Below are positions 11,108 to 16,316 of a stretch of DNA of 33,203 nt, one piece after another. The notes under the pieces are model-generated. The model was not told the DNA's origin. It was given only the letters and a program-made list of their open reading frames with translations, and did no database searches. The stretch spans positions 1 to 33,203 of the forward strand of contig JAUVXL010000017.1 of the NCBI GenBank assembly GCA_030603595.1, read 5' to 3'. Every line of letters starts with the position of its first letter. The first letter of the stretch is position 1. This DNA is from Sedimentisphaerales bacterium. Lineage in GTDB: Bacteria > Planctomycetota > Phycisphaerae > Sedimentisphaerales > Anaerobacaceae. The position numbers and the translations under genes are program-made.

Positions 11108-11136
11108 CTCCTCGACGTTTTGTTGACATCGAGGAG
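11108..11136. promoter_or_regulatory. Dyad overlapping the S10 promoter -35 box (candidate operator)
   Basis: CTCCTCGA (11108-11115) and TCGAGGAG (11129-11136) form a perfect 8-bp inverted repeat separated by 13 bases. The -35 hexamer at 11123-11128 lies inside the spacer, directly beside the right arm. A dimeric regulator bound here would block polymerase. The dyad is seen directly; the operator role is inference. Confidence 0.4.
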
Positions 11137-11151
11137 TCGGCGTGGTATATT
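11123..11151 (+). promoter_or_regulatory. Promoter P1 of the S10-spc-alpha superoperon
   Basis: TTGACA (11123-11128, consensus), a 17-base spacer, and TATATT (11146-11151, 5/6) with TGG directly upstream resembling an extended -10. Transcription would start near 11158, leaving a leader of about 420 bases before rpsJ. This is the strongest promoter-like sequence I found in the window, and it follows the fusA terminator T-runs. Confidence 0.82.
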
Positions 11152-11157
11152 CAACGG

Positions 11158-11578
11158 TTTTCAGCCGTAGCGAGCATCGTCAGGGACGACTTTGCGTGAA
11201 ACCAGTTGGGCTGTGGCACGTCTGTAAAATGATGGTCAAGGATGGTTTTGTAGTAGTCTGTCAGACTTTGGGGTGTACCATAAGCCCTCAAGAGGCTTTG
11301 GAAGGGCCAGGGCTGGTCCGAGACCCAGACTCTTTAAGGAAGGCGAGTTACTAAAGCCTCTCCTGCCGAAACGAAACGACGACTTTTGGCTGATTGCATT
11401 GCAGATCAGTCGCACGGTGGAGTTGTTGTTTTGCGTTGCTCTTTTGCTATAAGTTGATATGCAACAAGCTTTTATACGCTTGAGACGATATAGTTCCGAT
11501 AATATATTCTGCGTTGTCTGCTGATTTTGACTGAGTTGGTGGTTTAGGCGACGCCGGTCAGTGGTGCAGAGGACAATT
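11158..11578 (+). promoter_or_regulatory. Long structured 5' leader of the S10 operon
   Basis: About 420 untranslated bases separate P1 from rpsJ. AGAGGCTTT (11291-11299) pairs perfectly with AAAGCCTCT (11353-11361). The same left arm can instead pair with AAGCCCTC just upstream (11282-11289), so two exclusive folds are possible. A TCGTC/GACGA hairpin lies near 11176-11188. Ribosomal protein leaders are often autogenously controlled (L4 acts on the S10 leader in E. coli), but this sequence resembles no leader or riboswitch I know. A 41-codon frame (11229-11354, starting MMVKDGFVVV) lies within it, without a visible ribosome binding site. Confidence 0.5.
11480..11508 (+). promoter_or_regulatory. 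Candidate second promoter P2 of the S10 operon
   Basis: TTGAGA (11480-11485, 4/6), a 17-base spacer, and TATATT (11503-11508, 5/6). The start would be near 11515, giving a short leader of about 65 bases that skips the structured part of the P1 leader. Tandem promoters are common for ribosomal operons. The region is AT-rich, so chance matches are possible. Confidence 0.5.
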
Positions 11579-14458: not shown

Positions 14459-14497
14459 GGGTTAGTTGGCTTTGACAGAAGAATCGAGAAGTTGAAT

Positions 14498-14767
14498 ATG
14501 GGACGATCGCTAAAAAAAGGACCTTTCGTTGATGAAAAGCTGTTCATCAAGGTCAATAAGCAGGTTGATGCCGGCTCTCGCGAGCCAGTCAAGACCTGGG
14601 CGCGAAGATGTACGATAATCCCTGAGTTTGTGGGTTTTACGTTTCTCGTGCACAACGGGAAGATGTTCCATAAAGTTTTTGTAACCGAGGATATGGTGGG
14701 GCACAAGCTTGGCGAGTTTTCGCCGACAAGGACGTTCAAAGGGCATTCGAGCAAGAGAATAACGTAG
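14498..14767 (+). CDS. rpsS: 30S ribosomal protein S19
   Basis: S19 (89 aa) binds 16S rRNA with S13 in the 30S head. It begins [16 protein letters not shown], the standard family start, so ATG 14498 is chosen over the TTG six bases earlier. [16 protein letters not shown] and [18 protein letters not shown] are further hallmarks. A GAGAAG purine stretch (14486-14491) lies 6 bases upstream. The length is typical. rplV begins 62 bases after it. Confidence 0.96.
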
Positions 14768-14829: not shown

Positions 14830-15378
14830 ATGTTAAGTGCTGAAAAATTCAGAGAGTTATCGCAGGAGCGTCAGATTGACGTTCAGCAGTTGGCCGGCCA
14901 CATTGCTAGGGCGGGCCTGAGCGATGAAGAAGCAAGCGTTGCGATTGCGAATTGGCAGAAGGGTCTTTTCAAGCCAAAGCCACAGACGGAAGACATTCGT
15001 CGGCTGGCTTCTGCCTTGGGCGTAGAGGAAAACGACCTTGCTGACTGGCGTTCATCCTGTCGTTACGCGCCTGTTTCGGCCCGGAAGGCTCGTCTGGTCA
15101 CGCAATTGATAGTCGGCCGACCTGTCCAGGACGCTACGGACATCCTGAAATTCACGAGAAAACGGGCTGCGGGCATAGTTGATAAGGTTCTCAAGACCGC
15201 GATTGCGGACGCTGATGAGCAGAGGGCGGATGTGGATAATCTTTATGTCTGCCGGGCCAGAGTGGATGATGCCGGAGTTCGCATCGGCACAAAAAGATGG
15301 ATACCGAAGGACCGAGGAAGGGCTCATCCGATCCGGAAGAAGGCCTGTCACATACATGTAACGGTGACACAGATATAG
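14830..15378 (+). CDS. rplV: 50S ribosomal protein L22 with N-terminal HTH-like domain
   Basis: The C-terminal part (residues 76-182) is a normal L22, an exit-tunnel protein. It starts at CRYAPVSARKARLVTQLIVGR, passes RAAGIVDKVLKTAIADA, and has the tunnel loop then RGRAHPIRKKACHIHVTV. Ahead of it are about 73 extra residues. They resemble an XRE/Cro-type helix-turn-helix: FRELSQERQIDVQQLAGHI, then NWQKGLFKPKP (41-51), DIRRLASALGVEENDL (55-70). No ATG or GTG lies near the L22 core, so the extension is part of the protein. Ordinary L22 is about 110-120 aa. The L22 assignment is firm; the HTH function is inference. Confidence 0.93.
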   Translation: MLSAEKFRELSQERQIDVQQLAGHIARAGLSDEEASVAIANWQKGLFKPKPQTEDIRRLASALGVEENDLADWRSSCRYAPVSARKARLVTQLIVGRPVQDATDILKFTRKRAAGIVDKVLKTAIADADEQRADVDNLYVCRARVDDAGVRIGTKRWIPKDRGRAHPIRKKACHIHVTVTQI

Positions 15379-15419: not shown

Positions 15420-16316
15420 ATGGGTCAGAAAGTATCGCCAATAGGTTTCAGGACGGGGATTACGCTGGGGTGGCAGAGCACGTGGTATGCTCCCAAGGCC
15501 AGCTACGGCGATTTTCTCGTCGAAGACCAGAAAATCCGTCGCTTTATCGACCAGAAGTTCAACCGCAGAATGCCGAGGGGCGCGGTAGCCAAGACTGAGG
15601 TTATCAGGACGCGTAACGAAGTGAAAGTTACGCTGCATAGCGCCAGGCCCGGTGTGGTGATTGGCCCCCGAGGCGGAGAAGTCGATAAGCTTAGGGAAGA
15701 GCTTGAAGACTTAACCGGTCGCAAGGTTGGCGTAAATGTTATCGAGATAAAAGAGCCCGACCTCAATGCTAATCTGGTTGGTCAGGCGATAGCCGAACAG
15801 TTGGGCAAGCGGGCCTCATTCAGACGGACTATGAAGCAGTTCTGCGAGGCCGCGATGAACGCAGGGGCTAAAGGAGTAAAGATTATATGCTCCGGGCGGC
15901 TGGGCGGCTCTGAAATGGCAAGGAAAGAAACACAGAAGCTCGGGAGCATTCCGCTGCACACGCTTGACGCCAACGTAGATTACGCTATTACGGTTGCCAG
16001 AACCACGTATGGCGTAATCGGCGTAAAAGTTTGGATTTACAAAGGCAAGTTTGGCGAAGAGATTGAGCCGCGGATACGGCAGCGTCGGCGTCCGCCTATG
16101 CGTGGTGGACGTCCCGGCGGCGGCGGTGCGGGCGGCAGAGGTAGAGGTAGAGGGGCGCCGACAGGTCAAGGCCAAAGCCGAGGCCGTGCCCAAGCCGCAG
16201 TGGCCCCGGTTCCGGCTACGCCGGGCAAATCGGCTCCTGCAGCAACTGAAAAGCCTGCAGTTGAAGCTACTGAGACGCCGGATGCCGCCAAGGCGGAAGG
16301 TGAGCAGACAAGTTAA
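15420..16316 (+). CDS. rpsC: 30S ribosomal protein S3 with RGG-rich tail
   Basis: S3 (298 aa) forms part of the mRNA entry channel and helicase site. GQKVSPIGFRTGITLGWQS opens the protein. The KH domain carries VVIGPRGGEVDKLREEL, and VDYAITVARTTYGVIGVKVW is near the end of the core. E. coli S3 is 233 aa; this one adds a low-complexity tail (residues 220-298). The tail first is Arg/Gly-rich, including repeated RG, then Ala/Pro/Glu-rich and acidic. The frame is continuous to the TAA at 16314. rplP follows after 57 bases. Confidence 0.96.
   Translation: MGQKVSPIGFRTGITLGWQSTWYAPKASYGDFLVEDQKIRRFIDQKFNRRMPRGAVAKTEVIRTRNEVKVTLHSARPGVVIGPRGGEVDKLREELEDLTGRKVGVNVIEIKEPDLNANLVGQAIAEQLGKRASFRRTMKQFCEAAMNAGAKGVKIICSGRLGGSEMARKETQKLGSIPLHTLDANVDYAITVARTTYGVIGVKVWIYKGKFGEEIEPRIRQRRRPPMRGGRPGGGGAGGRGRGRGAPTGQGQSRGRAQAAVAPVPATPGKSAPAATEKPAVEATETPDAAKAEGEQTS

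Follow-up and report, generated by a model that had tools for sequence, protein, structure and literature searches.

The ribosomal protein uL22 encoded in the window (the whole 33,203-nucleotide stretch of Sedimentisphaerales DNA analysed here) carries at its N terminus a separate domain with the helix-turn-helix (HTH) fold of Cro/C1 (XRE) regulators. The fusion is genuine and, judged by the open-access papers searched, in which no account of an L22–HTH fusion turned up, undescribed. It is rare for a universal ribosomal protein to acquire an entire recognisable domain. Here an essential protein, one of the four at the tunnel exit, bears a Cro/C1 fold across an order of environmental planctomycetes and in two more distantly related families of its class, a clean case for studying the reuse of a DNA-binding fold on the ribosome. 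The function of the domain we infer: that it has been repurposed as a ribosome-surface domain near the tunnel exit is favoured over a DNA-binding regulator and given about an even chance.

The S10 operon is normal in the window, with the uL22 open reading frame (positions 14830–15378, forward strand; ATG start, 182 amino acids) lying between those of S19 (14492–14767) and S3 (15420–16316). The L22 core (15061–15378, forward strand) comprises residues 78–182 and the stop codon, and was delimited by PF00237 (Ribosomal_L22; profile search, residues 78–179, E-value of 1.9e-28), by TIGR01044 (NCBIfam rplV; 90.3 bits against a cut-off of 73.65, model positions 3–103 of 103) and by the predicted structure of the whole protein, in which the core resembles L22 of many ribosomes. 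These boundaries bear out the original prediction that L22 begins at about residue 76 of 182, and its statement that no alternative start lies near the core also stands, the only in-frame candidates being TTG triplets at codons 21 and 63. Relatives throughout the order share the start, with ATG at the identical codon in 52 of 52 aligned Sedimentisphaerales L22 sequences. An internal start at codon 82, inside the core, was rejected: ATG or GTG occurs there in half of the relatives and is absent in the window, and its use would cut the first strand.

Comparison of the window with its five nearest relatives gave pN/pS values of 0.14–0.27 for the N-terminal domain and 0.09–0.15 for the core, and the medians over 73 closer pairs were 0.37 and 0.13, respectively; the domain thus evolves faster than the core yet is constrained, and both are under purifying selection. 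The fusion is no artefact. The fused open reading frame is the only L22 found in the source assembly, and the ribosomes must therefore be supplied with it.

The N-terminal domain is composed of residues 1–72 (14830–15045, forward strand). From the single window sequence the claim of an HTH at residues 5–72 was a guess, as the profile evidence is weak: residues 1–76 alone match HTH_19 with an E-value of 0.0026 and 18.1 bits, below the gathering score of 30.2. The same profile search, which the original prediction had proposed as a check, is far more telling with the relatives. Among 37 N-terminal domains forming a diverse set from three lineages, 16 are matched by HTH_31 (best E-value of 2.8e-8), ten by HTH_3 (best 3.8e-8) and seven by HTH_19 (best 1.1e-8), all at E ≤ 0.01. 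The structure prediction agrees: AlphaFold2, run on the domain alone with 50 related domains as input, returned a five-helix XRE fold with a mean pLDDT of 92.7, comprising helices 4–14, 18–25, 32–43 and 53–63 and a short turn at 67–69. The segment between helices 2 and 3, which had been suspected of being longer than usual, indeed runs from the end of helix 2 at residue 25 to the start of helix 3 at residue 32. Foldseek comparison with the PDB retrieved the regulators P22 c2, C.AhdI and DdrO at a probability of 1.00, with E-values no better than about 0.02–0.04 owing to the small size of the domain; most of the PDB matches listed are regulators of the Cro/C1 type or enzymes that contain a Cro-like domain, at probabilities of about 1. 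Residues 1–72 are thereby confirmed as a separate domain with the Cro/C1 HTH fold, fused to L22. A resemblance to TniQ (E-values of 0.01–0.05) was taken as the common HTH pattern only.

The trait is old and has become fixed across whole lineages. Within the class, 396 genomes were sampled, with families labelled by number (f10, f25, f18 and so on) and per-family totals counted from two lists; the domain is present in all 72 of the Sedimentisphaerales genomes in which L22 was detected, in 86 of 86 f10 genomes and in four of four f25 genomes. The profile search found it in none of about 230 genomes of 19 further families of the class, and the S19–L22 interval of 16 families lacking it, whose L22 loci were read directly, contains no remnant. 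Among the 322 genomes of a phylum-wide sample, the profile search detected fused L22 in this class alone. Each carrier has one fused L22 and, at the profile level, no second copy of the domain. A 912-amino-acid protein from another class matches part of the domain (E-value of 2.7e-5) and contains no L22.

In a FastTree phylogeny of nine ribosomal proteins, the Sedimentisphaerales form one clade, and f10 and f25 are placed elsewhere in the class, beside families without the domain. In the tree of the L22 core, f10 and f25 cluster with f28, f20 and f22 and are again separate from the Sedimentisphaerales; this tree gives no sign of a transfer of whole rplV between the fusion groups, in both respects with weak supports. 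The window sequence, used as a single query, retrieves the L22 domains of f10 with one chance-like exception, and the profile gives one place per genome despite the many HTH candidates present; at the level of sequence, the domains of the Sedimentisphaerales and of the f10/f25 group are specifically alike. Their distribution may reflect one origin followed by losses, or the 5′ portion of the gene may have spread. A 660-amino-acid open frame in f10 with a weak match to the domain was dropped as a chance hit.

The L22 domain and the Cro/C1 regulators P22 c2, C.AhdI and DdrO have the five-helix fold in common, and both show the pattern LA..I, WxKGxxxP and LAxALGV. They differ in that the L22 domain has a longer loop between helices 2 and 3, is fused to a ribosomal protein, has no operator detected at the S10 promoter, and varies at the DNA-reading positions. 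XRE regulators read DNA with the first half of helix 3. The corresponding residues 31–37 are poorly conserved, those at 31–34 and 36 having entropies of 2.75–3.15 bits over the 37 diverse domains, among the highest in the domain, and being highly variable inside the Sedimentisphaerales too. Conservation is found at the C-terminal end of helix 3 and in the loop that follows, a basic strip at residues 40–52 (14947–14985, forward strand). A38, N41, W42, P49 and D55 are invariant in 37 of 37 domains, and positions 40, 44, 48, 50 and 52 are usually occupied by K, R or H. The net charge of the domain is near neutral, with a median of +2.5 and a range of −4 to +8 in the order. No conserved inverted repeat or palindromic operator was found at the S10 promoter, the only promoter examined. 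The variable DNA-reading positions and the lack of a conserved repeat at this promoter speak for a structural role rather than for a regulator that recognises a specific DNA sequence. An XRE-type repressor function of L22, directed at the S10 operon or a different one, would be suggested by the fold, which is that of DNA-binding regulators, and is disfavoured by the near-neutral charge as well; it is accordingly a very improbable explanation. The original prediction had offered two roles, a DNA- or RNA-binding autoregulator and an extension of the ribosome surface; the former, as a binder of DNA, is not supported on these grounds, and the latter is retained as fitting all observations.

We propose that, long ago, the uL22 of these Phycisphaerae gained an XRE-type HTH domain at its N terminus, in frame, and that this domain has since become a permanent structural component of the large subunit. 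Its place would be on the solvent side, where uL22 borders the exit of the peptide tunnel, and it would be held by a strand running straight into the first strand of L22; in the AlphaFold2 model of the whole protein, a single strand (residues 71–80) is continuous from the domain into the core. The conserved strip N41-W42-K44-G45-K48-P49-K50-Q/K52 would contact rRNA or neighbouring proteins, and the domain would no longer read a specific DNA sequence. The incorporation into the ribosome, the site on the subunit and the contacts of the strip are what we infer here, and the proposal predicts visible extra density near the tunnel exit. Cro-like domains occur also inside enzymes such as HppE, as the Foldseek matches show, and are not known to bind DNA there. 

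In general, the tunnel exit is surrounded by four proteins, uL22 among them, and the uL22c of chloroplasts has terminal extensions (PMC5071890); bacterial ribosomal proteins commonly carry extensions, and that on the L22 of Mycoplasma pneumoniae is structured (PMC9534751). Two observations count against a ribosome-surface extension. The near-neutral charge is unlike that of a typical rRNA-binding extension. In addition, 23S rRNA of seven genomes with the domain and eight without it, aligned with that of Escherichia coli, contains no indel or base that separates the two groups, and so no compensating change in the rRNA was seen. The domain could instead be a docking platform, recruiting a protein factor for targeting, nascent-chain processing or hibernation to the tunnel exit. 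In keeping with this idea, such factors bind at the exit, next to uL22 (PMC5071890), the strip at the end of helix 3 and in the loop has an exposed type of sequence, and the domain evolves faster than the core, as surfaces in contact with partners can; the partner is hypothetical, and we consider the platform unlikely.

Two lineage-specific features of 23S rRNA were noted in the same alignment. One genome (G143, locus L287) has about 298 extra bases at E. coli positions 1868–1878, possibly an intervening sequence. Most of the segment at E. coli positions 1489–1509 is lost in f10, f25 and f24 (L288–L291 and L293); this loss is not tied to the L22 domain, as f24 has no domain and the Sedimentisphaerales retain the segment.

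The S10 operon is preceded by a sigma-70-type promoter (11123–11151, forward strand; TTGACA-N17-TATATT), which is near-consensus, has an extended −10 element and a T-rich stretch upstream, and is conserved in the Sedimentisphaerales. A few bases past it, a covariance model places a covarying, hairpin-type leader RNA (11158–11218, forward strand), upstream of S10 and about 3.6 kb upstream of L22. The element occurs in exactly one copy in 70 of 76 Sedimentisphaerales genomes, about one-third of the genomes of the order having supplied the model, so that their matches are not independent; two weak matches lie elsewhere. In the leader, seven of 11 pairs have changed on both sides, a number reached in none of 500 shuffles, and pairing amounts to 97.8%, against 26–49% in slid controls. 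The element has no match in Rfam, and no match was found when it was considered as a mimic of an E. coli rRNA site. It is undescribed and a candidate new leader of a ribosomal protein operon, which would be a natural site of autoregulation.

Autoregulation of ribosomal proteins through leader RNA is a known mechanism, the S10 leader of E. coli being the target of L4 (PMC10931766), and by this precedent free L22 might use its HTH domain to bind the leader of the S10-operon mRNA, from which it is itself translated, and lower expression, as E. coli L4 does. The covarying element directly after the promoter would suit such control, as would the long distances from promoter to S10, which are 239–611 bases in the order and in f10 and f25 mostly exceed those of most families without the domain. 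Long leaders are, however, also found in f18 and f11, which have no domain, and the lineages are not independent; moreover, L4 is the likelier ligand of the leader, and XRE folds are not usual RNA binders. The element is absent from f10 and f25, both carriers of the domain, so the leader does not explain the domain and was rejected as its obligate partner. The suggestion of RNA-level autoregulation made in the original prediction gains a leader RNA in the order, an element that these two fusion families lack, and we regard it as quite unlikely. More broadly, an L22 in dual use, which off the ribosome would recognise its own operon, as leader RNA or as DNA, and shut it down, appears distinctly unlikely; if true, the ribosome would have captured a domain of transcription factors and turned it into a feedback sensor. 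The leader RNA constitutes a separate, testable lead on the control of ribosomal protein operons in Planctomycetota.

Compared with bacterial uL22 as described by TIGR01044 and PF00237, the window protein shares the core sequence, the S19–L22–S3 order, the tunnel hairpin and the single copy, and differs by the addition of a folded N-terminal domain of 72 residues and, throughout the order, by a hairpin about three residues longer. L22 of M. pneumoniae (PMC9534751) and chloroplast uL22c (PMC5071890) likewise bear lineage-specific terminal extensions; those are described as secondary-structure elements or extended tails, whereas the present one is N-terminal and amounts to a complete HTH domain that can be recognised as such. 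PRK12279 (NF008917), L22 with an unknown domain, is also an L22 fusion, and its core part matches the window protein. Its model of 311 positions, however, has L22 at the start and the extra part C-terminal, rather than N-terminal as in the window, and membership was rejected at 55.3 bits against a cut-off of 526, with model positions 11–108, the L22 part only, being matched.

The tunnel hairpin of L22 (15262–15325 in the window) reads DDAGVRIGTKRW in Sedimentisphaerales and DEGPTMKRF in other L22 proteins, the roughly three added residues falling in the loop that helps to form the tunnel constriction. The neighbouring S3 of the window has 298 amino acids and a C-terminal tail (16080–16316) rich in G, R, P and A (GGRGRGRGAPTGQGQSRGRAQ...), which is atypical for S3.
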